Shown one piece after another: positions 5,940-20,532 of a stretch of DNA of 64,000 nucleotides (positions are counted from its first letter, which is position 1; every line of letters starts with the position of its first letter). Source of the stretch: Streptomyces sp. PCS3-D2 (GTDB lineage Bacteria; Actinomycetota; Actinomycetes; Streptomycetales; Streptomycetaceae); contig NZ_CP097800.1 in the NCBI RefSeq assembly GCF_000612545.2, positions 5,716,501 to 5,780,500 on the forward strand, written 5' to 3'. The notes under the pieces are model-generated. The model worked only from the letters and a program-made list of their open reading frames with translations. It searched no databases and was not told the origin of the DNA. Made by a program: the position numbers and the translations under genes.

Positions 5940-6668
5940 ATGACGACACGTGCCCGTTCCTTCGACGCCGCTGCCGCTTCCTACGCCGCCCACCGCCCCG
6001 GCTACCCGCCGGCCCTCTTCGACGCCGTCGAGGAGCTCGCCGGGCGCCCGCTCGCCGGGGCGCGCGTGGCCGACGTGGGCGCGGGCACCGGGATCGCCAC
6101 CGCCGTGCTGCACGAGCGGGGCGCCGACGTCCTCGCCGTGGAGCCCGGGGACGGGATGGCCGCGCAGCTGCGCCGGGCGCATCCCGGGATCCCGGTCGTA
6201 CGCGGGGACGGGGACCGGCTTCCGCTGGCCACCGCCGCGTTCGACCTCCTGACCTACGCCCAGGCCTGGCACTGGACCGACCCGGCCCGCTCCGTCCCCG
6301 AGGCCCGCCGCGTCCTGCGCCCGGGCGGCGCGCTCGCCCTCTGGTGGAACGACCCGGACCTCACCGTGCCCTGGATCGCCGAGCAGGAGGCCCGGCTGGC
6401 GGCGTTCTTCGGGGCGGCCGGCGGGCAGGGCTTCCGTACCCTGCCCCGCGGCTTCGGCGGGTTCACCTCCCGCACCGTGCGCTGGTCCCGGCGCATCCCG
6501 CTGGACGCGCACCTCGCCAACCTGGCCAGCCACTCCGCCTTCCTGATGCTGGGCGAGGCCGGCACCCGCGACTACTTCGCGGCGGAACGGGAGCTGCTGG
6601 CCCCGCTCTTCCCCGACGGCACGGTCGAGGAGAACTACGTGGTCGGACTCCACGTCAGCCGGGTGTGA
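5940..6668 (+). CDS. Class I SAM-dependent methyltransferase
   Basis: A 242-residue protein. The SAM site is VADVGAGTGIATAVL near residue 42, followed by the acidic strand LAVEPGDGM and motif III-IV around AFDLLTYAQAWHWTD. The motif FDAAAASYAAHRPGYP at the N terminus is characteristic of this large Streptomyces methyltransferase group. The substrate is unknown. Its end overlaps the convergent acyl-CoA dehydrogenase gene by 14 bases. An ATG at 5932 opens only a three-codon frame, so 5940 is the start. Confidence 0.87.
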   Translation: MTTRARSFDAAAASYAAHRPGYPPALFDAVEELAGRPLAGARVADVGAGTGIATAVLHERGADVLAVEPGDGMAAQLRRAHPGIPVVRGDGDRLPLATAAFDLLTYAQAWHWTDPARSVPEARRVLRPGGALALWWNDPDLTVPWIAEQEARLAAFFGAAGGQGFRTLPRGFGGFTSRTVRWSRRIPLDAHLANLASHSAFLMLGEAGTRDYFAAERELLAPLFPDGTVEENYVVGLHVSRV

Positions 6669-7647
6669 CCGACCGCAGCACCTCCGCCCGGCACGCCGAC
6701 GGCGTGCCCCAGGCGTCCCGCAGCGGGCGTGCCTTGCGCAGCCACAGCGACAGGTCCAGCTCCTCGGTGTAGCCGACCGCGCCGTGGAGCTGGAGGGCTG
6801 TCATGGCCGCCCGGTACGCCGCCTCTCCGCACCGCAGCTTCGCCGCCGCCACGTCGCCGGGGGCGAGCGACAGCGCCGCCGCCCACAGCAGCGGGCGGGC
6901 GAACTCCAGGGCCAGGAGGGTGTCGGCCAGCCGGTGCTTGACCGCCTGGAAGGAGCCGACCGGCACCCCGAACTGCGTGCGCTGCCGGACGTATCCGACC
7001 GTCCGCTCCAGCAGTGCCTCGCCCACGCCCAGGCACTGGGCCGCCGTCAGCAGCCGGGCCCAGCGCCCGGCCGCCCCGGCCGCGCGCGCCACAGCCGGCC
7101 CCGCGGCCAGGAGTGTGCCCCCGGCCGCCGTGGGGCGCGACAGCCGCCGCGCCGGGTCCGTCGACCGCAGGACTTCCCCCGGCGCGGGGGCGGCCAGCCG
7201 CAGCTCGCCGGCCGCCGACACGGTGAAGCAGTACGTGGCCGCGTCCGCGTCCAGGGCGTACGGCCCGCCGTCCGGCAGCGTCAGGGTGGCCCAGGCCTCA
7301 CCCGCGACCAGGCCGGGCAGGAACCGCTCGGCGAGCTTTTCGTCCCCCAGTTCCGACAGCAGCACCGACGCGGCGGCGCTCTCCACCACCGGCCCCGGCA
7401 TCCCGGCCCGGCCCAGCTCCACGAAGCCCAGCGAGAGCTCCGCCGGGAGCAGGCCGGCCCCCTCGTAGGCCTCGGGGGCGGCCAGCGCGAACAGGCCCGT
7501 CGCCGCGAGCCGGGAGCGCAGCGCCAGCCCGGGCGCGTACGCGCCGTCCGCCCAGGCCCGTACCGTCGCCGGAACCCGGGCCGAGCCCAGCAGGGAGCGC
7601 AGGGTGCGGGCGAAGTCCGACTGCTCGTCGGTCGGCAGGAAGCGCAT
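6655..7647 (-). CDS. Acyl-CoA dehydrogenase, small subunit of a heteromeric pair (steroid type)
   Basis: A 330-residue acyl-CoA dehydrogenase-like protein. The N-terminal helical domain begins MRFLPTDEQSDFARTLRSLL and the C-terminal domain has the family signature LHGAVGYTEELDLSLW. It is shorter than the usual 380 residues and follows the larger dehydrogenase with a one-base stop/start overlap (TGATG), the arrangement of alpha2beta2 steroid enzymes such as the FadE31-33 (IpdE) group of Mycobacterium. It should introduce a double bond in a steroid ring C/D acyl-CoA. The exact step is inferred from the neighbouring ipd genes. Confidence 0.85.
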   Translation of the reverse strand: MRFLPTDEQSDFARTLRSLLGSARVPATVRAWADGAYAPGLALRSRLAATGLFALAAPEAYEGAGLLPAELSLGFVELGRAGMPGPVVESAAASVLLSELGDEKLAERFLPGLVAGEAWATLTLPDGGPYALDADAATYCFTVSAAGELRLAAPAPGEVLRSTDPARRLSRPTAAGGTLLAAGPAVARAAGAAGRWARLLTAAQCLGVGEALLERTVGYVRQRTQFGVPVGSFQAVKHRLADTLLALEFARPLLWAAALSLAPGDVAAAKLRCGEAAYRAAMTALQLHGAVGYTEELDLSLWLRKARPLRDAWGTPSACRAEVLRSVTPG

Positions 7648-8792
7648 CAGCGGCGGCCCTTCGGCAGGCCGAGCAGCCGCTCGGCGATGATGTCGCGCTG
7701 GATCTCGTTGGTCCCGGCGTAGATCGGCCCGGCCAGCGAGAAGACCCACGGCTCGGCCCACTCCCCGTCCGCGAGCTCGGCGTCCGCACCCAGCAGGTCC
7801 AGTGCCGTCTCGTGCAGGGCGATGTCGTACTCCGACCAGAACACCTTGTTCAGGCTGGACTCGGCGCCGACGGCCCCGCCCGCGGCGAACCGGGAGGCGC
7901 CGGCCCAGGTGAACAGCTCGTAGGCGCGCGCCCCGACCACCGCGTCGGCCACCCGGTCGCGCAGCGCCGTGTCGGCCGGGTCCCCCTGCGCGCGCCACAG
8001 CGCGGCCAGCCGGTCCGCCGCCGCGAGGAACCGGCCGGGGGAGCGCAGGGTCAGCCCGCGTTCGCTGCCGGTGGTGGACATCGCGATCCGCCAGCCCTGC
8101 CCGGGCTCCCCGATCACGTCCTCGTCCGGGACGAAGACCTCGTCCAGGAAGAGTTCCGCGAAGGCCGGCTTGCCGTCGAGACGGCCGATCGGCCGCACCG
8201 TGACCCCCGGCGCCCGCAGGTCGAACATCAGGTACGTCAGCCCCTGGTGCGGTTTCGGGGTGTCCGGGTCGGTGCGGAAGATACCGAAGGCCCGGTCCGC
8301 GAAGGCCGCCCGCGAGGACCAGGTCTTCTGCCCGGACAGCAGCCAGCCGCCCTCGGTGCGGACCGCACGCGACGTCAGCGAGGCCAGGTCGGAGCCCGAC
8401 TCCGGCTCCGACCAGGCCTGCGCCCAGACCACCTCGCCGCTCGCCATCGGCGGCAGTACGCGGGCCCGCTGTTCGGCCGTCGCATGGTCGAAGAGCGTCG
8501 GCGCGAGGAGGCTGATGCCGTTCTGCGAGACCCGGCCCGGCGCGCCGACCGCCCAGTACTCCTCCTCGAAGACCAGCCACCTCACCAGGTCGACGCCCCG
8601 GCCGCCGTACTCCTCGGGCCAGGACACCACCGCCCAGCGGTCCGCGTGCAGCCGGGCCTCCCACTCCCGGTGCGCGGCGAAGCCCTCCCGGGTCTCCAGC
8701 GAGGGCAGGGGGGAGGCGGGTACGTGGTCGGCCAGCCAGGCGCGCGCTTCGGCCCGGAAGGCCTCCACTCCGGCCGTCTGGGTCAGGTCCAT
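7647..8792 (-). CDS. Acyl-CoA dehydrogenase, large subunit of a heteromeric pair (steroid type)
   Basis: A 381-residue FAD-dependent dehydrogenase. It shows the flavin-binding middle segment (QAWSEPESGSDLASL near residue 130) and the C-terminal GPIYAGTNEIQRDIIAERLLG motif, typical of the FadE family acting on steroid side chains and rings. ATG 8792 is chosen: the frame opens 39 bases earlier, inside the operator at 8827-8840, and the first conserved residues come after MDLTQT. It is the first gene of the leftward arm of the HIP locus and is translationally coupled to the small subunit. Confidence 0.87.
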   Translation of the reverse strand: MDLTQTAGVEAFRAEARAWLADHVPASPLPSLETREGFAAHREWEARLHADRWAVVSWPEEYGGRGVDLVRWLVFEEEYWAVGAPGRVSQNGISLLAPTLFDHATAEQRARVLPPMASGEVVWAQAWSEPESGSDLASLTSRAVRTEGGWLLSGQKTWSSRAAFADRAFGIFRTDPDTPKPHQGLTYLMFDLRAPGVTVRPIGRLDGKPAFAELFLDEVFVPDEDVIGEPGQGWRIAMSTTGSERGLTLRSPGRFLAAADRLAALWRAQGDPADTALRDRVADAVVGARAYELFTWAGASRFAAGGAVGAESSLNKVFWSEYDIALHETALDLLGADAELADGEWAEPWVFSLAGPIYAGTNEIQRDIIAERLLGLPKGRR

Positions 8793-8826
8793 CGGGTGCC
8801 CGCCTCCTCGAACGCCACACTTCCCT

Positions 8827-8840
8827 AACAAGTGTTTGGT
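8827..8840. promoter_or_regulatory. KstR2-type operator, copy 1
   Basis: The 14-mer AACAAGTGTTTGGT lies between the divergent dehydrogenase and ipdF genes. It fits the KstR2 consensus AnCAAGnnCTTGnT at every fixed position but one. An almost identical copy is in the other divergent gap of the locus (18355-18368). The regulator gene lies 1 kb away at 9840. The assignment rests on sequence match plus gene context. Confidence 0.75.
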
Positions 8841-8856
8841 AGGTTAACGTACGGCC

Positions 8857-8883
8857 ATGAGCAGCGTCGAGGAGTTCGTATGA
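8857..8883 (+). CDS. Possible 8-codon leader peptide before ipdF
   Basis: ATG 8857 opens a frame encoding MSSVEEFV, whose TGA overlaps the ipdF start as ATGA. The ribosome-binding GGAG of ipdF (8871-8874) lies inside it. It could couple translation to ipdF or be chance; nothing else supports it. Confidence 0.25.
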   Translation: MSSVEEFV

Positions 8884-9662
8884 ACGAGCCCCGGTACACC
8901 GCCGGCCACCACTTGCTGCACGGCCGCACCGCCGTCATCACCGCCGCCGCCGGTGCCGGCATCGGCGGGGCCACCGCCCGCCGCTTCCTGGAGGAGGGCG
9001 CCCGCATCGTCATCGGAGACGCCCACGTCCGCCGGCTCAAGGAGACCGAGGACGCGCTCATGGCCGAGTTCGGTGCCGGCCGCATCACCTCCCTGCCCTG
9101 CGACGTCACCGACGAGGACCAGGTCCGAGCCCTGTTCGCCCACGCCGAACAGGCCCACGGCCGCCTCGACATCGTCGTCAACAACGCCGGGCTCGGCGGC
9201 ACCGCGGCCCTCGCCGACATGACCGACGAGCAGTGGAACCGCGTCCTCGACGTCACCCTGAACGGCACCTTCCGCTGCACCCGGGCCGCCCTGCGCTCCT
9301 TCAGGGCCACCGGCACGGGCGGAGTCGTCGTCAACAACGCCTCCGTCGTCGGCTGGCGCGCCCAGACGGGCCAGGCCCACTACGCCGCGGCCAAGGCCGG
9401 GGTCATGGCGCTCACCCGCTGCGCGGCCCTGGAGGCCGCGGAGTTCGGTGTACGCGTCAACGCGGTCGCCCCGAGCCTGGCCATGCACCCGCACCTGGTG
9501 AAGGTCACCAGCGGGGAACTCCTGGCCGAACTCACCGCCCGCGAGGCCTTCGGCCGCCACGCCGAGCCCTGGGAGGTCGCCAACGTCATCGTGTTCCTGG
9601 CCAGCGGCTACGCGTCGTACATGACGGGCGAAACCGTCTCCGTCAGCAGCCAGCGCGCCTAG
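8880..9662 (+). CDS. ipdF: Short-chain dehydrogenase of HIP ring degradation (IpdF-like)
   Basis: A 260-residue SDR. It has the NAD(P) motif TAAAGAGIGGATARR near residue 22, NNAG near residue 102, and the catalytic Ser plus YAAAK near residue 165. The stretches ASVVGWRAQ, HYAAAKAGVMALTRC and EPWEVANVIVFLAS match IpdF of Mycobacterium (Rv3559c), which interconverts the 5-hydroxy and 5-oxo forms of HIP-CoA. ATG 8880 is preceded by GGAG at 5 nt. The 180 bases to kstR2 hold only the latter's promoter region. It is the first gene of the rightward arm and is presumably repressed through the operator at 8827. Confidence 0.9.
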   Translation: MNEPRYTAGHHLLHGRTAVITAAAGAGIGGATARRFLEEGARIVIGDAHVRRLKETEDALMAEFGAGRITSLPCDVTDEDQVRALFAHAEQAHGRLDIVVNNAGLGGTAALADMTDEQWNRVLDVTLNGTFRCTRAALRSFRATGTGGVVVNNASVVGWRAQTGQAHYAAAKAGVMALTRCAALEAAEFGVRVNAVAPSLAMHPHLVKVTSGELLAELTAREAFGRHAEPWEVANVIVFLASGYASYMTGETVSVSSQRA

Positions 9663-9827
9663 GCCGGGTCCGGTGGATCGGGACGTACCGGCTCGCGGCC
9701 TCCGCCGCCGCGGGCCGCGGCACGGACGGGGGAGCCCCCGCGGGGGATCGGCGACCGGGGGCGGCGCGGCGCGACCCGGCGCCGGACGCCGCGGGCCCGC
9801 CCGGATCCGCCGGACACGACCTGGCCC

Positions 9828-9833
9828 GACAAT
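9828..9833 (+). promoter_or_regulatory. -10-like element of kstR2 (leaderless)
   Basis: The hexamer GACAAT ends 6 nt before GTG 9840, and there is no ribosome-binding site. The same ACAATGGACGC string occurs before the methyltransferase start at 5940. No convincing -35 is visible. Confidence 0.4.
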
Positions 9834-9839
9834 GGACGC

Positions 9840-10505
9840 GTGCCAACGAACCAGCCGGAAGCCACGCCCCGAGCCACGCCGCGAGCCAGGCCGGCGGCCA
9901 GGAAGAAGCAGCAGGTGACGCCCTCGCCCGAGCGGCGCCGCGAACTCCTCGACACCGCCGCCGAGGTCTTCGCCGCACAGGGCTACGACGCCACCACCGT
10001 CCGCAAGATCGCCGACGCCGCCGGGATGCTCGCCGGCAGCCTCTACTACCACTTCGATTCCAAGGAATCGATGCTCGACGAGATCCTCTCCGCCTTCCTG
10101 ACCGAGCTGTGGGACGGGTACGACGCCGTCCTCGCCGCCGGACTCGGCCCCAGGGAGACCATCGAGGCCCTCGTCACCGAGTCCTTCCGCGAGATCGACC
10201 GGCACCGCGCCGCCGTCGCGATCTACCAGAAGGAAGCCCGCACCCTCTCCGCCCAGCCCCGGTTCCACTACCTGTCCGACTCACAGCAGAAGTTCGAGAA
10301 GGCCTGGCTGGGGACGCTGGAACGAGGAGTCGCCGCCCAGGTCTTCCGGGCCGACCTCGACATCCGCCTCACCTACCGCTTCGTGCGCGACACGGTGTGG
10401 GTGGCGGCGTCCTGGTACCGGCCGGGCGGACAGCACAGCCCCGAAGAGATCGCCCGCCAGTACCTGTCGATGGTCCTGGACGGGATCGCCCTGCGCCCCA
10501 CCTGA
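9840..10505 (+). CDS. kstR2: TetR-family repressor of HIP catabolism, KstR2-like
   Basis: A 221-residue regulator. After a 30-residue basic, disordered N terminus, a TetR helix-turn-helix covers about residues 45-78 (TTVRKIADAAGMLAGSLYYHF). The ligand domain keeps the signatures IYQKEARTLSAQPRF and YRFVRDTVWVAASWYRPGG, which I recognise from KstR2, the HIP-CoA-responsive repressor of steroid ring C/D genes in Mycobacterium and Rhodococcus. The neighbours are exactly KstR2 regulon genes and two fitting operators are present. GTG 9840 is the only start that gives the full domain. fadA6 begins 26 bases downstream, so they are likely co-transcribed. Confidence 0.9.
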   Translation: MPTNQPEATPRATPRARPAARKKQQVTPSPERRRELLDTAAEVFAAQGYDATTVRKIADAAGMLAGSLYYHFDSKESMLDEILSAFLTELWDGYDAVLAAGLGPRETIEALVTESFREIDRHRAAVAIYQKEARTLSAQPRFHYLSDSQQKFEKAWLGTLERGVAAQVFRADLDIRLTYRFVRDTVWVAASWYRPGGQHSPEEIARQYLSMVLDGIALRPT

Positions 10506-10531
10506 CCGGTCCGACCGTCTGAGGAGTCCCG

Positions 10532-11689
10532 ATGCCCGAGGCCTACATAGTCGACGCCGTACGCACCCCCGTCGGGCGGCGCGGCGGGGGCCTGTCCGCC
10601 GTCCACCCGGCCGACCTCGGCGCGCACGTCCTCAGGGAGCTCGTCGGACGGTCCGGGGTGGACCCGGCCGCCGTGGAGGACGTGGTCTTCGGCTGCCTCG
10701 ACACGGTCGGCCCGCAGGCCGGGGACATCGCACGCACCGCGTGGCTCGCCGCCGGCCTGCCCGAGGAGGTGCCCGGGGTCACCGTCGACCGCCAGTGCGG
10801 CTCCTCCCAGCAGGCGGTGCACTTCGCCGCTCAGGGCGTGCTCTCCGGCACCCAGGACCTCGTGGTCGCCGGCGGCACCCAGAACATGTCGATGATCCCG
10901 ATAGCCTTCGCCTCCCGGCAGGCCGCCGAACCCCTCGGCCTCACGGAAGGCCCCTACGCCGGCTCGGAAGGCTGGCGCGCCCGGTACGGCGACGCCCCGG
11001 TCAACCAGTTCCACGGCGCGCAGCTGATCGCGCGGAAGTGGGGCATCTCGCGCTCCGACATGGAGGAGTACGCGCTCCGCTCCCACCGGCGGGCCGTGCG
11101 GGCCGTCGACGAGGGGCGCTTCGAACGCGAGATCGCACCCTACGGGGACGTGGCCGCGGACGAGGGGCCGCGCAGGGACACCACCCTGGAGAAGATGGCC
11201 GCCCTCAAGCCCGTCGTCGAGGGCGGGACCATCACCGCCGCGGTCTCCTCCCAGGTCTCCGACGGCGCCGCCGCCCTGCTGATCGCCTCCGGGCGGGCGC
11301 TGCACGAACACGGCCTGCGGCCGCGTGCCCGCATCCACCACCTCTCGGTGCGCGGCGAGGACCCCGTCCGCATGCTCTCCGCGCCCATCCCGGCGACGGC
11401 GTACGCGCTGAAGAAGACCGGCATGTCGCTGGCCGACATCGACCTGGTCGAGATCAACGAGGCGTTCGCCCCGGTGGTGCTGGCCTGGCTGAAGGAGACC
11501 GGGGCCGATCCGGAGCGCGTCAACGTCAACGGGGGGGCCATCGCCCTGGGCCACCCGCTGGGCGCGACCGGGGTCAGGCTGATGACCACCCTCCTGCACG
11601 AACTGGAGCGCACCGGCGGCCGGTTCGGCCTCCAGACCATGTGCGAGGGCGGCGGCCAGGCCAACGTGACGATCATCGAACGGCTGTAG
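10532..11689 (+). CDS. fadA6: Steroid thiolase, FadA6-like acetyl-CoA acyltransferase
   Basis: A 385-residue thiolase. The nucleophile Cys lies in DRQCGSSQQAV near residue 89, and the other catalytic signatures are EINEAFAP, GGAIALGHPLGATG and the C-terminal Cys of MCEGGGQA. It cleaves a 3-oxoacyl-CoA to release acetyl-CoA or another small thioester. The KstR2-region context makes it the counterpart of FadA6, which acts late in HIP breakdown. ATG 10532 has GAGGAG 6 nt upstream. It is the last gene of the left half of the locus; cold-shock genes follow. Confidence 0.87.
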   Translation: MPEAYIVDAVRTPVGRRGGGLSAVHPADLGAHVLRELVGRSGVDPAAVEDVVFGCLDTVGPQAGDIARTAWLAAGLPEEVPGVTVDRQCGSSQQAVHFAAQGVLSGTQDLVVAGGTQNMSMIPIAFASRQAAEPLGLTEGPYAGSEGWRARYGDAPVNQFHGAQLIARKWGISRSDMEEYALRSHRRAVRAVDEGRFEREIAPYGDVAADEGPRRDTTLEKMAALKPVVEGGTITAAVSSQVSDGAAALLIASGRALHEHGLRPRARIHHLSVRGEDPVRMLSAPIPATAYALKKTGMSLADIDLVEINEAFAPVVLAWLKETGADPERVNVNGGAIALGHPLGATGVRLMTTLLHELERTGGRFGLQTMCEGGGQANVTIIERL

Positions 11690-11816
11690 CCGGTCGGCGG
11701 TCCACCGCCCCCGCCGACAGCGCGGGGGCACAGGTCACACCGGCCGGTCCGCACACCGGGGCGTACATGTGCTAACTTAAGCGGCGTTGCAGTTGTGGTA
11801 CCCATAAACTCTATGT

Positions 11817-11857
11817 GCGCCTGACGGGAATGTTCCTCAGGCGCTTTTATTGTTTTT
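11817..11857 (+). terminator. Intrinsic terminator or attenuator in the csp leader
   Basis: An 8-bp perfect stem (11817-11824 with 11837-11844) and a 12-nt loop are followed at once by TTTTATTGTTTTT. This is the only textbook U-rich terminator in the window. It sits 128 bases after fadA6 and 48 before csp. A possible promoter hexamer TAACTT (11773-11778) upstream would place it inside the csp leader as an attenuator; otherwise it ends the fadA6 message. Confidence 0.75.
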
Positions 11858-11905
11858 CCCGGAATCTCCGGATGGGGCCCTTGCCGCCTATTCAGGAGAT
11901 TCAAC

Positions 11906-12109
11906 ATGGCACTTGGCACCGTGAAGTGGTTCAACTCGGAAAAGGGCTTCGGCTTCATCGAGCAGGACGGCGGCGGCCCGGACGTCTTCGCCCACTACTC
12001 GAACATCGCCACCCAGGGCTTCCGTGAGCTCACCGAGGGCCAGCGCGTGTCCTTCGACGTGACGCAGGGCCAGAAGGGCCCCCAGGCGGAGAACATCATC
12101 CCCGCCTAA
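11906..12109 (+). CDS. Cold-shock protein, CspA family
   Basis: A 67-residue single cold-shock domain. It has the RNA-binding motifs RNP1-like KGFGFIEQ near residue 13 and RNP2-like VFAHYS near residue 28, starting with the canonical [10 protein letters not shown]. Such proteins bind single-stranded RNA and act as RNA chaperones. AGGAG lies 7 nt before the ATG. The gene is preceded by a strong terminator-like hairpin and followed by a 15-bp hairpin and a DEAD-box helicase, a typical cold-response pairing. Confidence 0.96.
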
Positions 12110-12121
12110 TTCCTTCAGCAT

Positions 12122-12155
12122 GCCGGGGTCCGCACCGCGAGGTGCGGGCCCCGGC
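12122..12155 (+). terminator. Hairpin between csp and helicase
   Basis: A 15-bp stem with one G-U pair (12122-12136 with 12141-12155) is closed by a GCGA (GNRA-type) loop and followed by TTGTCT. It starts 12 bases after the csp stop. It may end the csp message or stabilise its 3' end while letting some read-through reach the helicase. Confidence 0.7.
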
Positions 12156-12210
12156 TTGTCTGCTGTCTCGACCTGTGTTTCACCTGCCGGTTTCAGGAGG
12201 GCTTTCTCGC

Positions 12211-13863
12211 ATGACCAGCTCCAGCTCCGCACGTCCCAGCCGCCGCCCCGCCCGGGGACGAGGAGCGGCCCAGGGGCGTCCGAAGACTGGTGCGGGACGG
12301 CAGAAGTCCGCCCCGCCCGCACCCCGGCCCCAGGAATTCACCATGCCCGAGCCGACCGTCCCGGCACTGCCGCCGGTCGCCGCGTTCGAGGACATGGACA
12401 TGCCCGAGGCGCTGCTGAAGACCCTCGCGGCCCAGGGCGTCACCGAGCCGTTCCCCATCCAGGCGGCGACCCTCCCGAACTCCCTCGCCGGCCGTGACCT
12501 GCTCGGCCGCGGTCGCACCGGCTCCGGCAAGACCCTCGCCTTCGGCCTGGCGCTGCTGGCCCGTACCGCCGGCCGCCGCGCGGAGCCGAGGGCGCCGCTC
12601 GCGATGGTCCTCGTACCGACCCGCGAGCTCGCGCAGCAGGTGACCGACTCCCTGGCTCCGTACGCCACGGCCGTCAACCTGCGCATCGCCACCGTCGTCG
12701 GCGGCATGTCGATCAACCGGCAGGCGGGCGCCCTGCGCCGCGGCGCCGAGGTGCTCGTCGCCACCCCCGGCCGCCTGAAGGACCTCATCGACCGCGGCGA
12801 CGCGGACCTGTCGCAGGTGTCGATCACGGTCCTCGACGAGGCCGACCAGATGACCGACATGGGCTTCATGCCGCAGGTCACCGCGCTGCTCAAGCAGGTC
12901 CGGCCCGAGGGCCAGACCATGCTCTTCTCGGCGACCCTCGACAAGAACATCGACAAGCTGGTCAAGATGTTCCTGAGCGACCCGGTCGGCCACTCCGTCG
13001 ACCCCTCGGCCGGTGCGGTCACCACCATGGAGCACCACGTCCTGTACGTCATGGACGAGACCGACAAGAAGGCCGTGGCGACGCGCATAGCCGCTCGCGA
13101 CGGCCGGGTGATCATGTTCGTGGACACCAAGCGCGGCGTGGACCGCATGGTCAAGAAGCTCCTGGCGGACGGTGTGCGCGCCTCCGGCCTGCACGGCGGC
13201 CGCTCGCAGCCGCAGCGCAACCGCACCCTGGACTGGTTCAAGACGGGCGAGGTCACCGCGCTGATCGCCACCAACGTGGCGGCCCGCGGCATCCACATCG
13301 ACGACCTCGACCTGGTCGTCAACGTGGACCCGCCCACCGACCACAAGGACTACCTGCACCGCGGCGGCCGCACCGCGCGCGCCGGCGAGTCCGGCAGCGT
13401 GGTCACCCTGGTGCTGCCCGACCAGAAGCGGGACATGACCCGGCTCATGTCGGACGCCGGGATCACCCCGCGCACCGCGCAGATCAAGTCCTCCGACGAG
13501 GAGCTGGCCCGGCTGACCGGCGCCAAGGAGCCCTCGGGCATCCCGGTGGTGCTGGAGGTGCCGCAGCAGCCCGCGCCGAAGGCGCGCAGCGGCTCCGGCT
13601 CCGGCTCCGGTTCCGGCTCGCGCCGCCGCTCGGGCGGCCCCCGCACCGGCACCGCTACCGGCGGCGCCCCGGCGGCCGCGGGCCGGGGCCGCCGCTCCGG
13701 CGGCGGGTCCGGGCAGGCCCCGGCCGCGTCCGGCTCGGGCCAGGGCCGTCGCGGCGGCCAGGGCGGCTCGGCCGGCGGCTCCGGCGCCGGAGCCGGAGCC
13801 GCGGCGGCCTCCGCGCGCAGTCGGGTCGGCACCGGCGGCCAGGGCCGCCGCCGCACCGGCTGA
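12211..13863 (+). CDS. DEAD-box RNA helicase with basic Gly-rich tail
   Basis: A 550-residue helicase. A basic N terminus of about 60 residues precedes the core: Q motif (FPIQAATLP), Walker A (GRTGSGKT) near residue 107, PTRELAQQ, the DEAD box in LDEADQMTDMGF, SAT in LFSATLD, and motif VI HRGGRTARAG. The last 110 residues are Gly/Ser/Arg-rich repeats like the RNA-binding tails of cold-induced helicases (CsdA/RhlE type). It should unwind structured RNA, which fits the neighbouring cold-shock gene. AGGAGG lies 10 nt before ATG 12211. A convergent terminator follows. Confidence 0.95.
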   Translation: MTSSSSARPSRRPARGRGAAQGRPKTGAGRQKSAPPAPRPQEFTMPEPTVPALPPVAAFEDMDMPEALLKTLAAQGVTEPFPIQAATLPNSLAGRDLLGRGRTGSGKTLAFGLALLARTAGRRAEPRAPLAMVLVPTRELAQQVTDSLAPYATAVNLRIATVVGGMSINRQAGALRRGAEVLVATPGRLKDLIDRGDADLSQVSITVLDEADQMTDMGFMPQVTALLKQVRPEGQTMLFSATLDKNIDKLVKMFLSDPVGHSVDPSAGAVTTMEHHVLYVMDETDKKAVATRIAARDGRVIMFVDTKRGVDRMVKKLLADGVRASGLHGGRSQPQRNRTLDWFKTGEVTALIATNVAARGIHIDDLDLVVNVDPPTDHKDYLHRGGRTARAGESGSVVTLVLPDQKRDMTRLMSDAGITPRTAQIKSSDEELARLTGAKEPSGIPVVLEVPQQPAPKARSGSGSGSGSGSRRRSGGPRTGTATGGAPAAAGRGRRSGGGSGQAPAASGSGQGRRGGQGGSAGGSGAGAGAAAASARSRVGTGGQGRRRTG

Positions 13864-13883
13864 TCCCCTCCCCGCTCCCTGCA

Positions 13884-13916
13884 CCGACGGGCAGTGCTCC
13901 GCGCACTGCCCGTCGG
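13884..13916. terminator. Bidirectional terminator, helicase/phosphatase
   Basis: A 13-bp perfect stem (13884-13896 with 13904-13916) with a 7-nt loop lies in the 61-base gap between two convergent genes, so it can serve both strands. Confidence 0.8.
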
Positions 13917-13924
13917 CGCGTCCG

Positions 13925-14851
13925 CTACCGGACCAGCCTGCTCTGCAGCTGCGCCAGCGTCCGCAGGTCCAGGCCGAGGCCCTGCGTCAGGTAGCCGTAG
14001 AAGCTGCCGTAGTCGGCCTCCATCTGCGCCGTCGCCGAGTCCAGGTAGTCCTGGCGGACCTCCTGGAGTGGGATCAGCAGATCCGGGTTCTGCATGAGGC
14101 CCGACTGCTTGAGGCCCGCCCGCACTGATGCGTCGTAGGCGGCGCGGAAGGTGTTCGAGGCCAGGTAGTCGCGCTCGGCGGTGTCCTCGGGGACGGCGAG
14201 GGCGCGCAGCAGCACGTAACTCATCCAGCCCGTCCGGTCCTTGCCGGACGTGCAGTGGTACAGGACCGGGCCCTGCCGGCCGTCCGCGAGCTCCCGCAGC
14301 GTTGCGGCGAACTGCGCCCGGTTCCCGGCGTCCGTCACGAACGTGCGGTAGATGGCGCGCATGTAGGCCTCGGCGCGGCCGCCGCCGAGCATCTGCTCCT
14401 GGATGACCGGGTCCCCGCTGCCGATGGCCCCGACGAGCGTCCCGTAGAGACCGAGGTCGCTGACCGGGCGGGCGGTGGCGGAGAGTCCGGCGGGCAGCCG
14501 GTCGGCGCCGTCGTACTGGACCTCCATGGGGATCCGGAAGTCGATGACCTTCGTGAGGCCGAGACCGGAGACGGTGGTGACGTCGGCGTCGGTCAGCTTG
14601 CCCAGTGCGTCGGAGCGGTAGACGAGCCCGTGGCGGACCTGGCCGCCGGTCCAGGTGCGGTGGCCGCCGAGGTCGCGGACGTTGACGGCGCCCTGGAGGG
14701 TGATCCGGGAGTACGTCTCGGCCCGCTGGTGGTGCCGGGCACCGGACGCGGCTGCGGGCGCCGCCGCCGCATACGCGGCGGACGGCAGGGCGGCGAGGGT
14801 GAGGGCGGCGACGGCTGCTGCGGCCGCTCTGCGGATTCTGACACGGCTCAT
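13925..14851 (-). CDS. Secreted tyrosine/serine phosphatase
   Basis: A 308-residue protein with a signal peptide (RIRRAAAAAVAALTLAALPSAAYA, cleavage near residue 28-30). The region VNVRDLGGHRT near residue 56 and the phosphatase loop HCTSGKDRTGW near residue 199 (Cys nucleophile, invariant Arg) identify the Y_phosphatase3 family. It acts outside the cell on phosphotyrosine, phosphoserine or possibly phosphoinositide substrates. It sits inside the HIP locus, 30 bases upstream of the ipdC end on the same map but transcribed leftward, and has no evident link to steroid breakdown. Confidence 0.9.
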   Translation of the reverse strand: MSRVRIRRAAAAAVAALTLAALPSAAYAAAAPAAASGARHHQRAETYSRITLQGAVNVRDLGGHRTWTGGQVRHGLVYRSDALGKLTDADVTTVSGLGLTKVIDFRIPMEVQYDGADRLPAGLSATARPVSDLGLYGTLVGAIGSGDPVIQEQMLGGGRAEAYMRAIYRTFVTDAGNRAQFAATLRELADGRQGPVLYHCTSGKDRTGWMSYVLLRALAVPEDTAERDYLASNTFRAAYDASVRAGLKQSGLMQNPDLLIPLQEVRQDYLDSATAQMEADYGSFYGYLTQGLGLDLRTLAQLQSRLVR

Positions 14852-14881
14852 GGAGGCGACTCCTGTGACGGAGAAGGGGGA

Positions 14882-16000
14882 TCACCCTGGTGGTGGCAGG
14901 GCGTCGAGCGGGTGCGGTTCGTGCGGTTCGTGCGGTTCGTGCGGTTCGTGCGGGCCGTGCAGACGGTCCAGCACGGAATGGGCCTCGGCCATGAGGCGCG
15001 TGACGAGCTCCGCACAGGACGGGAGATCGTCGATCACCCCCGCGACCTGGCCCGATGCCATGACCCCGAGGTCCGTTCGGCCCTCGACCATGGACGCCTT
15101 GAGGAGCATCGGAGTGTTCGCGGCGAGCAGCACCTGGCTCCAGGACAGGTCCTTGCCGTGCTTCATCGCCAGGCCGTCGCGGACCATCTGCGGCCAGCTC
15201 AGACCGGACTGCTCCCGCAGGGCCGCCGCGTGCCGGACCGCCCGCACCAGCGCCCGGGCACGGCCCGCCCGTTCCAGGGAGTCGACCAGCTCCGTGCGGA
15301 GCATGCGGTGCGGGAGCCCGTCGACGGCCCGGGTCACGGTGACGTCCCTGACGGTCGCCGTCAGGTACTCGGCCTTCACCGCGTCCGGGACGGTCGAGTC
15401 CGAGGTCAGCAGGAACCGCGTGCCCATCGCGATGCCCGCCGCCCCGTAGGCCAGGGCGGCGACCAGACCGCGGCCGTCGGCAAAGCCGCCCGCCGCGACC
15501 ACCGGGATGTCCACGGCGTCCACGACCTGCGGCAGCAGCACCGTCGTGGCCACGTCCCCGGTGTGCCCGCCGCCCTCGCCGCCCTGCACGATCACCGCGT
15601 CGGCGCCCCAGGCGGCCACCTTCTCGGCATGCCTCCGGGCCCCGATCGAGGGGATGACGACCACCCCGGCGTCCTTCAGCCGCCCGATCAGCTCCTTGGA
15701 GGGCGCGAGCGCGAACGAGGCGACCCGCACCCCCTCGTCGACGATCAGCCGGACGCGCTCGGGTGCGTCCCCGGCGTCCGCGCGCAGATTGACGCCGAAG
15801 GGGGTTCCCTCCGGTAGGCGGGACCTGACCTCGCGGATCGCCGACCGCAACTGCTCCGTGGTCATCGTGGCCGAGGCGAGGATGCCCAGGGCGCCGGCGC
15901 CCGCCGCGGCCGACACCAGCCGGGGGCCCGCAACCCAGCCCATGCCCGTCTGCACGATGGGGTGCTCCACCCCGACCAGCTTCGTGAACGCCGTTTCCAC
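14882..16000 (-). CDS. ipdC: IpdC-like flavin reductase (nitronate monooxygenase family)
   Basis: A 372-residue TIM-barrel FMN protein of the nitronate monooxygenase fold. It has VGVEHPIVQTGMGWVAGP at the N terminus, GGEGGGHTG near residue 142 and AAGGFADGRG near residue 170 for FMN phosphate binding. In Mycobacterium IpdC is a NADH-dependent reductase of a steroid ring C intermediate, encoded after ipdA and ipdB exactly as here. The start is GTG 16000, 4 bases after the ipdB stop. The C terminus ends in four His-Glu-Pro repeats made by a 9-bp tandem repeat, absent from usual family members. Confidence 0.88.
   Translation of the reverse strand: METAFTKLVGVEHPIVQTGMGWVAGPRLVSAAAGAGALGILASATMTTEQLRSAIREVRSRLPEGTPFGVNLRADAGDAPERVRLIVDEGVRVASFALAPSKELIGRLKDAGVVVIPSIGARRHAEKVAAWGADAVIVQGGEGGGHTGDVATTVLLPQVVDAVDIPVVAAGGFADGRGLVAALAYGAAGIAMGTRFLLTSDSTVPDAVKAEYLTATVRDVTVTRAVDGLPHRMLRTELVDSLERAGRARALVRAVRHAAALREQSGLSWPQMVRDGLAMKHGKDLSWSQVLLAANTPMLLKASMVEGRTDLGVMASGQVAGVIDDLPSCAELVTRLMAEAHSVLDRLHGPHEPHEPHEPHEPHPLDALPPPG
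14912..14956 (-). repeat. 9-bp tandem repeat in the 3' end of ipdC
   Basis: Four perfect copies of GTGCGGTTC (plus strand, 14912-14947) and one imperfect copy encode HEP tripeptides at the IpdC C terminus. Unit number is likely to vary by slippage without shifting the frame. Confidence 0.9.
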
Positions 16001-16004
16001 CGGA

Positions 16005-16739
16005 TCAGCCCCGCACTTCCCGGTCGCGCAGACCCTTCGGATCGATCACCTCGCGGATCAGCCGCAGCTCGTCCCCGGCCGGCTCCCGGGTGTACGGGAC
16101 CTCCTCGGGCAGCGCCAGCTCGAAGCCGGTCGCGGCCCGGACCTGCTCGACGGTGACCCCGGGGTGCAGGGAGGCCAGCCGCATCGTGCGGCCGGGGCCG
16201 GTGAAGTCGAAGACGCCCAGGTCGCTGACCACCCGGGGCAGCCGGTGGAACCGGGTCACCCCGGCCTCGACGGCCCGGTCGTGGCCGACCCCGCTGACCA
16301 TGTCGACGCGCTCGACGAAAACCCGAGTGGAGTGCTTGGGGATCCAGTAACTCACCGGATTGTTCAGGGTGTTCACGGGTGCGCCGCGTACCCCGAGCAG
16401 CTGGCGGGACGGCCGCTCCCAGTCGCCGATGCAGGAGATGTTCTGGTTGCCGAACCGGTCGATCTGGCTCGCGCCCATCATCACGTGCCGCCGGCCGCCG
16501 GTGACCAGGGTCAGGTGGCGCCGGTACGGGAGCCAGCCCTCGGGCGTGCCGTCGAGCCCGACGAGCATGGCCTCGCCGTCCGTCAGCAGCAGGTCGGGGG
16601 AGAAGGTCCGCTTCGCCAGCCGGGCCCCGAAGGAGGGGATCAAGCCCATCGGGCTGGCGAGCACCTCGCCGTCACCCCGCCAGGCCTCGGCACACGCGAT
16701 CACGCAGTACTCGGCGCGGGTGACGGTCGTCGTGGTCAC
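16005..16739 (-). CDS. ipdB: IpdB: COCHEA-CoA hydrolase beta subunit
   Basis: A 244-residue protein of the CoA-transferase family I beta fold. It has the conserved MMGASQIDRFGNQN near residue 95 and NNPVSYWIPKHSTRVFVERVD. In Mycobacterium IpdA and IpdB form a heterotetramer that, despite its CoA-transferase fold, hydrolytically opens the last steroid ring of COCHEA-CoA. The start is GTG 16739, overlapping the ipdA stop by 4 bases (GTGA). The order echA20-ipdA-ipdB-ipdC is the same as in Mycobacterium. Confidence 0.9.
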   Translation of the reverse strand: MTTTTVTRAEYCVIACAEAWRGDGEVLASPMGLIPSFGARLAKRTFSPDLLLTDGEAMLVGLDGTPEGWLPYRRHLTLVTGGRRHVMMGASQIDRFGNQNISCIGDWERPSRQLLGVRGAPVNTLNNPVSYWIPKHSTRVFVERVDMVSGVGHDRAVEAGVTRFHRLPRVVSDLGVFDFTGPGRTMRLASLHPGVTVEQVRAATGFELALPEEVPYTREPAGDELRLIREVIDPKGLRDREVRG

Positions 16740-17587
16740 TGCTGCTCCTCGTGCCAGGTCCGGACGGCCGACCGGTAGTCGTGCTCGGTCGCCCCGGACA
16801 GGAAGCGGGCCGAGAACTCGGTCCAGGGGGTGCTTGCGTAGAGCTTCTGGAAGGCCTCGTCGCGTCCGTAGTCGGGGGCGCAGGAGGTGAAGTGCGCACC
16901 GTTGGGGGCCTCGACCACCCCGGTGACGGAGTGCCGGCTGACGAGGAGGGACTGTGCCGGCCCGGCCTTGGCGAGCTCGGCGGTCTCCACGAGCTGCTCG
17001 CAGGAGACGTAGGCGGCTTCGGCGGCCTCGCAGAACAGGTCGTCGAAGTACGGATCCGGGCCCAGGTACTGTGCGTTGCCGAGGCGGTCGGCCCGGTTGA
17101 GGTGGACCAGGGCGGCGTCCATGCGCAGGGCGGGGACGGCGACGAGCTCCTCGCCGTCGGCGTAGGGCGAGGTCACCGTGCGCAGTTCCGGGTTGACCCG
17201 CATCACGTCGGAGCCGAGCCCCGCGCGGACCGGCAGGAAGGGCAGCCGGTTGGCCGCGGCGTGCAGGCCCCACATGAACATGGCCTCGTCGTACTCGGTG
17301 AGCACGAAGGCGGCCCGCTCGCGGGCGGCCCGGAAATGCGGCTCCAGGGCGATGGAGTCGAGGGTGGCGAAGGGGGCGACGAGCCGGCGGATCCGGCCCG
17401 CGGCCGCCAGCAGGCCGACGTCGGGGCCACCGTAGGCGACCACGGTCAGATCGGTGATCTCGGACCGGAGCAGAGCTCTGACCAGGGCCATGGGCTTGCG
17501 CCGGGACCCCCAGCCGCCGATCCCGAGGGTCATTCCGCTGCGCAGCTGCCCGACCACCTCTTCGACGGTCATGGACTTGTCGCTCAT
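16736..17587 (-). CDS. ipdA: IpdA: COCHEA-CoA hydrolase alpha subunit
   Basis: A 283-residue CoA-transferase-fold alpha subunit: the Gly-rich SGMTLGIGGWGSRRKPMALVR near residue 18 binds the CoA part, and FVLTEYDEAMFMWGLHAA near residue 100 carries the acidic residues expected at the active site. It pairs with IpdB to cleave the final steroid ring. The start ATG 17587 overlaps the echA20 stop (ATGA), and its end overlaps ipdB, so the three are co-translated in equal amounts. Confidence 0.9.
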   Translation of the reverse strand: MSDKSMTVEEVVGQLRSGMTLGIGGWGSRRKPMALVRALLRSEITDLTVVAYGGPDVGLLAAAGRIRRLVAPFATLDSIALEPHFRAARERAAFVLTEYDEAMFMWGLHAAANRLPFLPVRAGLGSDVMRVNPELRTVTSPYADGEELVAVPALRMDAALVHLNRADRLGNAQYLGPDPYFDDLFCEAAEAAYVSCEQLVETAELAKAGPAQSLLVSRHSVTGVVEAPNGAHFTSCAPDYGRDEAFQKLYASTPWTEFSARFLSGATEHDYRSAVRTWHEEQQ

Positions 17588-18333
17588 GCGCGCTCTTCCT
17601 TCCCGAAGGTGTCGCGGACCCGGTCGGCCACCCCGCTGAGGTTGGCCTCGAAGGTGAAGCCCTGTTCGAAGCGGTAGCTGCGGCGCACGTCCACGGGGTC
17701 GATGCCGTTGATGGCCGCCTTCGCCAGCCGGATCAGGCAGCCGTCCTTCCTCGCGATCTCGGCGGCCAGTTCCAGGGCGGCGCCGCGCAGCGCCCCGGGC
17801 GGGACCACCTTCCAGACCGAGCCGTGGGCGCGCAGTTCCTCGGCGGTGGCGGTGCGCGAGGTGTAGTAGAGGGCGCGCATCAGGTGCTGGGGGACCAGCC
17901 GGGCCAGGTGGGTGGCGGCGCCGAGCGCGCCCCGGTCGAGCTCGGGCAGACCGAAGACGGCGTCGTCGGAGGCGATGATCGCGTCGGCGTTGCCGACCAG
18001 GCCGATCCCGCCCCCCAGGCAGAAGCCGTGCACGGCCGCGACGACCGGCACCTCGCACTCGTAGACGGCGGCGAACGCCTCGTAGCAGCCGCGGTTGGCG
18101 CCGATCAGGGCCGCGTGGCCGGTGGCGCGCTGCAACTCCTTGATGTCGACGCCCGCGTTGAAGCCGCGGCCTTCGGCGGCGAGGACCACGCAGCGGACCT
18201 TGGGGTCGCGGCCCGCCGCCCGCAGGGCGTCGGCCAGGTCGTACCAGCCCCGTACGGGCAGTGCGTTGACGGGTGGGAAGTCGACCGTGACCAGTGCGAC
18301 GCCCTTGTCCGGTCCGGAGGTGGAGACACCCAT
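17584..18333 (-). CDS. echA20: EchA20-like ring-opening hydrolase (crotonase family)
   Basis: A 249-residue crotonase-fold protein. VTVDFPPVNALP near the N terminus, EGRGFNAGVDIKEL near residue 62 and HGFCLGGGIGLVGNADAI near residue 106 match EchA20, which hydrolytically opens ring D of the HIP-derived CoA ester. The frame opens at 18363, but that ATG lies inside the operator at 18355-18368, so ATG 18333 is chosen; it also gives the family length. It is the first gene of the four-gene leftward operon echA20-ipdA-ipdB-ipdC. Confidence 0.9.
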   Translation of the reverse strand: MGVSTSGPDKGVALVTVDFPPVNALPVRGWYDLADALRAAGRDPKVRCVVLAAEGRGFNAGVDIKELQRATGHAALIGANRGCYEAFAAVYECEVPVVAAVHGFCLGGGIGLVGNADAIIASDDAVFGLPELDRGALGAATHLARLVPQHLMRALYYTSRTATAEELRAHGSVWKVVPPGALRGAALELAAEIARKDGCLIRLAKAAINGIDPVDVRRSYRFEQGFTFEANLSGVADRVRDTFGKEERA

Positions 18334-18354
18334 GAGAGGATCAGCTACCTTTCC

Positions 18355-18368
18355 ACCAAACATTTGTT
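18355..18368. promoter_or_regulatory. KstR2-type operator, copy 2
   Basis: The 14-mer ACCAAACATTTGTT (reverse complement AACAAATGTTTGGT) differs from copy 1 at one base and lies in the 56-base gap between divergent echA20 and the SDR gene. A 19-bp extended block shared with copy 1 has two differences. It departs from the KstR2 consensus at two symmetric positions. Confidence 0.72.
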
Positions 18369-18389
18369 AGGCAGGGAAGGTAGCAGCCC

Positions 18390-19154
18390 ATGGAGCTCGA
18401 CGGGAGGGTTGTCGTCGTCACCGGCGGCACCAGGGGCGTCGGCGCCGGCATCGCCCGGTCGTTCCTCGCGGCCGGCGCGCAGGTGGTCGTCTGCGCCCGG
18501 CGTCCCCCCGGTGAACCGGTGGCGGCGGACGGCCGCGAGGCGTCCTTCGCCGCGCTCGACCTGCGCGACCCGGCCGCCGTACGGGACTTCTTCGCCACGG
18601 TCGCCCGCCGCTACGGGCGCCTGGACTGCCTGGTCAACAACGCGGGCGGGACCCCCTACCGGCTCCTCGGGGAGGGCGACGCCGAGCGCCACGCACGGGT
18701 CGTCGAGCTCAACCTCCTCGCCCCCATGACGGCCTCGCTGGCGGCACGCCCCTGGCTCGGGCGGGCCCGGGGCTCGGTGGTGATGATCGGCAGCGTCAGC
18801 GGGACCCGCCCCTCACCGGGCACGGCGGCGTACGGGGCGGCCAAGGCGGGCCTGGAGAACCTCGCCCGGTCCATGGCCGTCGAGTGGGCGCCCGAGATAC
18901 GGGTGAACTGCCTGGTCCTCGGCATGGTGCGGACCGAACGCGCGCACCTGCACTACGGGGACGAGGCCGGGATCGAAGCCGTCGGCGCGACCGTCCCGCT
19001 GGGGCGGCTCGCCGAACCGGCCGACGTGGGCGACGCGGCGGTCTTCCTCGCCTCCGACCGGGCGCGGTACGTGAGCGGAGCGAGCCTGCTGGTGCACGGC
19101 GGCGGGGAGCGCCCGGCGTTCCTGGATGCGGCAACTGTCAACAAGGAGAGCTGA
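18390..19154 (+). CDS. SDR of the steroid ring C/D locus (Rv3549c-like)
   Basis: A 254-residue short-chain dehydrogenase with TGGTRGVGAGIARSF near residue 11, NNAGG near residue 82, catalytic Ser in IGSVSG and YGAAKAG near residue 149. Its position, divergent from echA20 and followed by a larger SDR, is the same as Rv3549c in the Mycobacterium KstR2 regulon. The substrate is not established; a hydroxy or oxo steroid-ring CoA ester is likely. GGGAAGG lies about 9 nt before the ATG. Confidence 0.87.
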   Translation: MELDGRVVVVTGGTRGVGAGIARSFLAAGAQVVVCARRPPGEPVAADGREASFAALDLRDPAAVRDFFATVARRYGRLDCLVNNAGGTPYRLLGEGDAERHARVVELNLLAPMTASLAARPWLGRARGSVVMIGSVSGTRPSPGTAAYGAAKAGLENLARSMAVEWAPEIRVNCLVLGMVRTERAHLHYGDEAGIEAVGATVPLGRLAEPADVGDAAVFLASDRARYVSGASLLVHGGGERPAFLDAATVNKES

Positions 19155-19155
19155 G

Positions 19156-20073
19156 ATGGCGGGACTGTGCGAGGGCCGGGTCGTGATCGTGACGGGTGCG
19201 GGGCGGGGGCTGGGCCGGGCCCATGCGCTGGCCTTCGCCGCGGAAGGGGCGAAAGTCGTCGTCAACGACCTCGGCGTGGGCCTGGACGGGCTTCCCGGGC
19301 CGCACAGCCCGGCGGCCCAAGTGGTCCGCGAGATCGAGGAGCTCGGCGGCGAAGCCGTCGCGCACGGCGGGGACATCGCGACGCGGCAGGGCGCGGACTC
19401 CCTCGTGGAGGCAGCCCTCGACGCCTTCGGGAGCCTGGACACGCTCGTCAACAACGCCGGTTTCCTGCGGGACCGGATGCTGGTGAACCTGGACGAGGAC
19501 GACTGGGACGCGGTCGTACGGGTCCACCTGAAGGGCCACTTCCTGCCGCTGCGGGCCGCCGCCGGGTGGTGGCGGGCGGAGGCGAAAGCCGGCCGCCCGG
19601 TGGCGGCCCGGGTGGTCAACACCTCCTCCGGGGCCGGGCTGCTGGGCTCCGTCGGCCAGGGCAACTACAGCGCCGCCAAGGCGGGCGTCCTCGGCCTGAC
19701 CCTGGTCGCCGCCGCCGAGATGGGCCGGTACGGGATCCAGGTCAACGCGATCGCCCCGGCCGCCCGGACGCGCATGACCCAGCGGACCTTCGCACAGACC
19801 ATGGCCGCCCCCGAGGACGGCGGCTTCGACGCGATGGCCCCCGAGAACGTGTCACCGCTCGTGGTCTGGCTGGGCGCGGACGCATCGGCCGGGGTGACCG
19901 GTCGGGTCTTCGAGACCGAGGGCGGACGGATCACGGTCATGGAGGGCTGGCGGCCGGGCCCCGCTGCCGACCGCGGAGCCCGGCGCACTCCCGCGGAGGC
20001 GGGCGAGACCGCCCTGAAGCTCCTCGCGCAGGCCCGGCCCCCGCTCCCGGCGTACGGCTCCGGCCGAGGGTAG
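19156..20073 (+). CDS. SDR of the steroid ring C/D locus (Rv3548c-like)
   Basis: A 305-residue short-chain dehydrogenase. TGAGRGLGRAHALAF near residue 13 binds the nucleotide, NNAGFLRDRML near residue 98 and YSAAKAGVLG near residue 172 complete the active site, and the 40-residue C-terminal extension is typical of MFE-type 3-hydroxyacyl-CoA dehydrogenases. The frame opens at 19126, but ATG 19156 has AAGGAG 7 nt upstream and lies one base after the previous stop. It ends the rightward two-gene operon. Confidence 0.87.
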   Translation: MAGLCEGRVVIVTGAGRGLGRAHALAFAAEGAKVVVNDLGVGLDGLPGPHSPAAQVVREIEELGGEAVAHGGDIATRQGADSLVEAALDAFGSLDTLVNNAGFLRDRMLVNLDEDDWDAVVRVHLKGHFLPLRAAAGWWRAEAKAGRPVAARVVNTSSGAGLLGSVGQGNYSAAKAGVLGLTLVAAAEMGRYGIQVNAIAPAARTRMTQRTFAQTMAAPEDGGFDAMAPENVSPLVVWLGADASAGVTGRVFETEGGRITVMEGWRPGPAADRGARRTPAEAGETALKLLAQARPPLPAYGSGRG

Positions 20074-20298
20074 GGCCTGCCCGCCCTGCCCGCCCTGCCC
20101 GCCGGGCGGCCGGCGCTACCGCGCGGACACCGCCCTGGCCATGTCCGCGGACGGCTTCTCCAGGCCCAGCATCTCCAGGGCCGAGTCCGTCTCCGCCTGG
20201 AGGGGAGGCTCGGTCGCCTCACCTCGCCTCGCCTCGCCTCGCCTGCGACGCGGGCGGCCCGGCGGGGACCCGCCTGCGGCGGAGGCCGGGAACGGAAG

Positions 20299-20331
20299 CG
20301 GGCCCGGCCCCCTGGCGAGGGGTCGGGCCCG
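20299..20331. terminator. Hairpin terminator
   Basis: A 13-bp stem with one G-U pair (20299-20311 with 20319-20331) and a 7-nt loop lies between the converging SDR and acid phosphatase genes. Confidence 0.6.
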
Positions 20332-20406
20332 AGTCTTCGTTGGTGCGTTGAGGTATGACTACCCGCTGGGCCCACCGGCTGAACCGCCGTCGGACCATCA
20401 TGTTGT

Positions 20407-20473
20407 GCGCGGGGTCCGCGCGGGGTCCGCACGGGGTCCGCACGGGGTCCGCACGGGGGCCGCACGGGGGTCC
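20407..20473. repeat. 11-bp tandem repeat
   Basis: About six head-to-tail copies of GCACGGGGTCC with small variations (GCGC in the first two, an extra G in the last two). It lies outside genes. Confidence 0.85.
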
Positions 20474-20532
20474 GCGCGCGGATCCGGGCGCGCGGACCGC
20501 GTGCGGGGGAACCGGGCGGTTCCGTCCGCGCG

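Follow-up and report, generated by a model that had tools for sequence, protein, structure and literature searches.

Two predicted KstR2-type operators in the steroid C/D-ring locus of a Streptomyces genome and their conservation across the genus

We analysed a 64,000-bp stretch of the genome of Streptomyces sp. PCS3-D2 (contig NZ_CP097800.1, positions 5,716,501 to 5,780,500; the whole stretch is called the window below), which contains a steroid C/D-ring locus (HIP locus). Two nearly identical DNA words in this locus, at 8827..8840 on the plus strand (site 1) and at 18355..18368 on the minus strand (site 2), very probably act as switches for a known steroid-ring repressor, and much of the genus has kept them with hardly a change. 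Judged from sequence, there is every likelihood that both words are operators of the KstR2-type repressor encoded at 9840-10505, which would jointly control four transcription units and be released by a coenzyme A (CoA) thioester.

Two operator sites, their regulator and their conservation

Site 1 (AACAAGTGTTTGGT) forms part of the conserved block TTCCCTAACAAGTGTTTGGTAGGTTARC and is separated by 34 bp from the start of ipdE1 and by 39 bp from that of ipdF. Site 2 (AACAAATGTTTGGT, within CCTAACAAAYGTTTGGTGGAAAGGT) is located 21 bp from each of the starts of echA20 and of a short-chain dehydrogenase/reductase (SDR) gene. Both 14-mers are present where the initial annotation had placed them, and a scan of the window finds no other match at up to two mismatches. 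They share the 19-bp block that had been described, CCTAACAA[G/A]TGTTTGGT[A/G]G, with differences at two positions. After shuffling the window 100 times we counted a mean of 0.03 such matches, and two matches in none of the shuffles.

In the whole genome (7,628,241 bases, 3 contigs) the word AACAARTGTTTGGT matches 2 places with at most one mismatch, 5 with at most two and 71 with at most three, the last number compared to 65 places in all for the reversed control. The 18-mer CTAACAARYGTTTGGTRG occurs, at up to two mismatches, at 2 places, one on each strand, and its reversed control at none. The random recurrence in unrelated promoters that the initial annotation had named as evidence against its own proposal is not what this search returned. 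Of the three further places that match AACAARTGTTTGGT with two mismatches, one falls within a called open reading frame, one has no gene called around it, and the last is a palindrome in a divergent gap (L005 1501-1514; G000:C1:6050828). We take this palindrome to resemble a LexA box, and the gene that follows it to be presumably that of a DnaE-type polymerase. Together, the shuffles, the reversed controls and the genome-wide count reject a chance origin of the two sites.

At the fixed positions of the published consensus AnCAAGnnCTTGnT, site 1 carries one mismatch, as had been claimed for one of the copies, and site 2 carries two. This poor fit arises because the lineage apparently uses a shifted operator code (see below). 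A relaxed form of the same consensus matched the window 18 times at up to two mismatches, with 5.77 matches expected, and was rejected as a non-discriminating detector. Taken together with its flanks, site 1 (TCCCTAACAAGTGTTTGGTAGGTT) differs at only 3 of 24 bases from the KstR2 site between Rhodococcus ro04595 and ro04596 (TACCTAGCAAGTGCTTGGTAGGTT), as given in the available text of PMC3068626.

A PDB search with the regulator encoded at 9840..10505 (plus strand; alternative start at 9915) returned the entries 2ibd (2.1e-65), 4w97 (7.7e-56) and 4w1u (8.2e-56), the latter two being named KstR2 entries. The next TetR protein (4mxm, 5.9e-21) follows about 35 orders of magnitude behind the KstR2 entries, and KstR reached only 1.5e-6. 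The alignment with 4w97 extends over 187 residues without a gap. Because of this ranking and the gene order ipdF-kstR2-fadA6, we assign the protein, initially annotated as KstR2-like, as the predicted orthologue of Rv3557c/ro04598 and neither as KstR nor as another TetR protein. Among the best 80 of at least 553 named relatives, 79 records are from Streptomyces. This count, together with the near match of site 1 to the Rhodococcus site, agrees with the initial proposal of a KstR2 regulon with two divergent-promoter operators in a probable Streptomyces. The window KstR2 also contains the motif RDTVW, which corresponds to residues 162-166 of the Mycobacterium tuberculosis protein in the numbering found in the available part of PMC13176608. 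The motif is kept in 78/78 Streptomyces KstR2 rows, and the 20 of 118 rows without a match to the pattern include no Streptomyces. Arg162 and Trp166 are, we assume, HIP-CoA contacts.

To follow sites and regulator through the genus we used a sample of 246 genomes drawn from a larger group. For KstR2, FadE30, KshA, FadD3 and IpdA the best 5-12 candidates per genome were scored, so that absences are bounded by this depth, most of all for FadD3. KstR2 was found in 177 and the 18-base word in 174 of the 246 genomes: 172 contain both, 5 only KstR2, 2 only the word and 67 neither. Hence, the word accompanies 172/177 KstR2-positive but only 2/69 KstR2-negative genomes (Fisher p 1.5e-51). All 167 genomes in which IpdA was detected contain both KstR2 and the word.

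A set of 80 named loci (again the best 80 of at least 553), which overlaps the genus sample and is no independent replicate of it, was used to read the letters of the two sites. Among the 69 loci with ipdF (the other 11 have no ipdF match above 70% identity), site 1 has the form AACAAGTGTTTGGT in 63 and AACAAGCGTTTGGC in 3; in the remaining 3 the pattern used found no word. At site 2, 37 of the 52 loci with echA20 show AACAAATGTTTGGT and 15 show AACAAACGTTTGGT. Both sites keep their place and letters across Streptomyces, even where the genes beside site 1 are deleted; in two loci (L198 and L199) kstR2 itself has gone from the locus and is found elsewhere in the genome, and both operators remain. 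In three loci (L192, L193 and L194; genomes G115, G127 and G203) a third word, CTAACAAGCGCTTGGTAG, precedes an SDR paralogue that is 52-55% identical to the window SDR encoded at 18390. The same word is also present in G178, and we interpret it as growth of the regulon in a few species. Two further loci (L096 in G166, L097 in G064) contain kstR2 genes of 87% identity in 20-kb stretches without HIP genes; the genes ahead of kstR2 in L096 resemble, by eye, the window gltBD genes at 170-2363.

Several observations weigh against the assignment of the two sites as KstR2 operators. Co-occurrence of word and kstR2 is confounded with the common descent of the locus. The word is absent from five KstR2-positive genomes (G052, G053, G072, G102 and G245), and IpdA was found in none of them. 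In NCBIfam, every match of the regulator stayed below cut-off and no KstR2 model appeared among the matches shown; the best matches were SACE_7040 (62.5 of 250 bits) and KstR (30.7 of 280). Finally, a sigma-70 promoter scan of 6500-20500 revealed no promoter-like site.

Gene content and proposed control of the locus

Genes were assigned by codon-based gene calling, NCBIfam, Pfam and comparison with the loci of relatives. Around site 1, ipdE2 and ipdE1 on the minus strand face ipdF, kstR2 and fadA6 on the plus strand. The ipdE2-like (FadE32-like) acyl-CoA dehydrogenase gene (6655..7647) has IpdE2 as its best named model, far under cut-off (112 of 450 bits), and the ipdE1-like (FadE31-like) acyl-CoA dehydrogenase gene (7647..8792) codes for a protein 61% identical to one from a mycobacterial-type locus. 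A single fused FadE at 6655-8820 was considered and rejected, as these are two overlapping genes in different frames. On the other side follow the SDR gene ipdF (8880..9662, PRK07831), the TetR-family repressor gene kstR2 and the thiolase gene fadA6 (10532..11689, PRK07801).

Around site 2, echA20 (17584..18333, PRK07938), the CoA-transferase family genes ipdA (16736..17587) and ipdB (16005..16739), both assigned by NCBIfam and Pfam, and the FabK-like reductase gene ipdC (14882..16000; NCBIfam, Pfam and relatives) lie on the minus strand. They face two SDR genes on the plus strand, in the places of Rv3549c (18390..19154, PRK07856) and Rv3548c (19156..20073, PRK07791). The HIP catabolic set is complete for ipdA, ipdB, ipdC, ipdF, fadA6, echA20, the fadE31/32-type genes and the two SDR genes; neither fadD3 nor fadE30 was found in the window. 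Both sites thus occupy divergent gaps, as first annotated, but they do not bracket the HIP genes: since each site lies inside a divergent pair, HIP genes flank it on both sides, and the arms are separated by helicase and phosphatase genes (12343-14851).

We propose that one KstR2 dimer per site would repress both divergent promoters there, so that the two operators would serve four transcription units with 11 genes: ipdE1-ipdE2, ipdF-kstR2-fadA6, echA20-ipdA-ipdB-ipdC and the two SDR genes. Release of the repressor would be brought about by the CoA thioester of a C/D-ring intermediate, presumably HIP-CoA or a close relative. Since the window contains no other word at up to two mismatches, there is none before kstR2 (9663-9839) either; kstR2, without an operator of its own, would be controlled, if at all, via read-through from site 1.

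Operator code and recognition helix

The initial annotation had described an A-for-G change in the second copy. The A is not a one-off change of that copy: site 2 contains CAAA in all 17 Streptomyces 20-kb loci that include echA20 and in all 52 named loci, which makes CAAA the norm and leaves the G-bearing half of site 1 as the exception. Across Streptomyces loci each site has its own fixed letter at the G/A position, and the difference is therefore an old trait; tuning of affinity by this difference is possible.

Relative to the mycobacterial operator code, at least one half-site is CAAA, and the regulator has changed as well, with LAGSLYYHF in place of LSGSLYHHF in its recognition helix. The former is present in 78/78 Streptomyces loci (from 68 genomes) and the latter in 20/20 loci of the families f4, f16 and f22. 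In loci with an A/Y or G/Y helix, base 6 of the half-site is A in at least one half in 48/48 sites (site 1: AG 17, AC 10, AT 1; site 2: AA 20). In loci with an S/H helix, A is present in only 6/33 sites (site 1: GG 17, AG 2, GT 1; site 2: GG 6, AG 4, GT 3), and the canonical-type site 2 is not uniform, with GG in 6/13. This covariation of helix and operator suggests a change of specificity, without proving it, because it may reflect a single evolutionary switch.

Family f15 contains both types of regulator. In the copy that belongs to the HIP locus the helix reads L(G/A)GSLYYHF in 10/10 loci, and in the other copy (L119-L128) it reads LSGSLYHHF in 10/10. Close upstream of this second copy the exact canonical word is found in 4/10 loci; another 4/10 have only one-mismatch words, some kilobases away, and 2/10 have none. 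A role of the second copy in regulating a canonical HIP locus is unsupported, as no HIP-gene set lies beside it in the 10 loci.

Missing upper pathway and comparison with known systems

Searches of the PCS3-D2 genome for KshA and HsaC found neither; the same HsaC query does match loci L203, L206, L207 and L211 of other genomes. A KstD homologue (55% identity) is encoded far from the HIP locus (G000:C1:7009396-7011030), and the closest FadE30 (62%) and FadD3 (56%) of this genome are paralogues only. In the genus sample KshA is present in 20/246 genomes, after one weak row (G189, 29%) of 21 matches was dropped. A close, true FadE30 (at least 77% identity) is present in 36/246 genomes, including 19 of the 20 with KshA. 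The 167 genomes with KstR2, IpdA and the word comprise 20 with KshA, 17 with FadE30 and no KshA, and 130 with neither. In KshA-positive genomes, genes for ring A/B breakdown can be situated near the HIP locus (L205 with L211; L203 with L204, L207 and L208).

The locus itself bears a scar of fadE30. In L091, L092 and L104, fadE30 lies directly behind site 1, with an enoyl-CoA hydratase gene on the opposite side. All that the window retains of the fadE30 5' end, in the gap that separates site 1 from ipdF, is ATGAGCAGCGTCGAGGAGTTC at 8857..8877 (plus strand), which comprises the start codon followed by six further codons (MSSVEEF). Such remnants vary in size by species, with both ends preserved in L106, next to an unchanged operator. 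On a quick tree of 66 named loci, which counts changes and not their direction, local fadE30 presence changed at least 7 times, 4 of these forced by well-supported branches. Comparison of the window with nine loci without KshA or an intact close FadE30 gave ratios of nonsynonymous to synonymous substitution rates (dN/dS) of 0.06-0.56, mostly 0.1-0.3, for the 11 remaining locus genes. These genes are under purifying selection, and the locus is therefore in use. Because local fadE30 changed state repeatedly while the other genes remain under such selection, a conserved regulon seems to persist in most of these genomes without the textbook upper pathway.

What may this regulon be used for? One account, which we hold possible if short of probable, is that it was repurposed for a C/D-ring-like acid of another source, which would enter via an unlinked cluster with FadD3-like and FadE30-like enzymes. 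Such a cluster exists at G000:C1 ~4302000-4354500 (L216-L218). Its FadE30-like gene (62% to Streptomyces FadE30) and its FadD3-like gene (56%) lie ~22 kb apart, and the cluster also encodes ChsH2-like and Ltp-like proteins, a TetR protein of its own and additional acyl-CoA dehydrogenases. The cluster tends to co-occur with KstR2: within the E limits used, FadE30-type matches are found in 153/177 KstR2-positive and 2/69 negative genomes, and FadD3-type matches in 152/177 and 3/69. These counts are uncorrected for phylogeny, draw on the best 5-7 candidates per genome and mix true FadE30 and FadD3 orthologues with second-cluster paralogues. The lack of KshA, HsaC and closer FadE30 or FadD3 in the PCS3-D2 genome also favors repurposing, whereas the KstD homologue at C1:7009396 speaks against it, as does the second cluster, which contains no operator-like word by the pattern used.

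A more far-reaching version combines these elements: much of Streptomyces would contain a KstR2 regulon with switched specificity (helix S to A/G and H to Y; half-site CAAG to CAAA), cut off from ring A/B breakdown and rewired to the unlinked cluster for a non-steroid C/D-ring-like compound. We regard this combination as rather unlikely. Family f15 has both helix types within a single genome, the canonical one with CAAGnnCTTG at several of its genes; on this reading, the two operator codes would be insulated from each other.

Alternatively, these bacteria may have lost ring A/B breakdown and now finish, after uptake, HIP or a later intermediate left by their neighbors, with paralogues substituting for FadD3 and FadE30. 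We consider this scenario conceivable, though not one to bet on. It accords with the purifying selection that keeps the C/D-ring enzymes and with the retention of Arg162 and Trp166, the presumed HIP-CoA contacts, in all Streptomyces rows. The available text of PMC5380842 also reports MOODA from a streptomycete grown on HIP. Against it stands the loss of close fadE30 in most genomes, since this enzyme would still be needed unless replaced.

It is very improbable that locus and sites are a decaying remnant of an ancestral steroid pathway, conserved merely through youth. Deletion or erosion of fadE30 to varying extents in many species would fit such decay, but the dN/dS values of the 11 genes and a nearly invariant operator next to eroding fadE30 remnants do not. 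It is similarly improbable that the blocks are conserved as a promoter core or for another regulator, with KstR2 not binding. In favor of this, the conserved stretch exceeds 14 bp, and TAGGTT next to site 1 might serve as a -10 element; against it, the word reappears at a second promoter unrelated to the first, its distribution across genomes follows that of kstR2, and it is similar to proven KstR2 sites.

In the open-access literature covered by our search, we found nothing on KstR2 operators in Streptomyces, on the missing upper pathway or on the helix change. The available text of an earlier survey (PMC4810484) lists 55/57 Streptomyces genomes without a steroid pathway; against this figure, the combination of KstR2, IpdA and the word in 167/246 sampled genomes is common. 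Two questions thereby become directly testable: what purpose a C/D-ring pathway serves in bacteria in which neither KshA nor HsaC is found, and how the code of a TetR repressor and that of its operators come to shift together.

Among known systems, the second KstR2-like regulator of family f15 is a member of the protein family to which the window KstR2 belongs (41-47% identity), but differs in its helix (LSGSLYHHF, 10/10), in having no HIP-gene set beside it and in the exact AnCAAGnnCTTGnT close upstream in 4/10 loci. Nocardioides simplex resembles our case in that KstR2 sites were predicted outside the mycolic-acid bacteria, and differs in its full steroid pathway, according to the available part of PMC7807495. 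For the mycobacterial regulon, the available text of Kendall et al. 2010 (PMC3068626) describes the same enzymes, an operator at Rv3549c/Rv3550 and a third operator before kstR2. Unlike the Mycobacterium and Rhodococcus regulons, the window has two operators instead of three and none before kstR2, a CAAA/TTTG half-site and a changed recognition helix; fadD3, fadE30 and fadE33 are missing from the locus, and KshA and HsaC were not found in the genome. Common to them are a TetR repressor (50-59% identity), divergent control, the same C/D-ring enzymes, and operators both between echA20 and Rv3549c-type genes and at the ipdF/fadE arm. The window thus presents a known regulon in a lineage variant, which, unexpectedly, is widespread and maintained in genomes where no steroid pathway to feed it was found.

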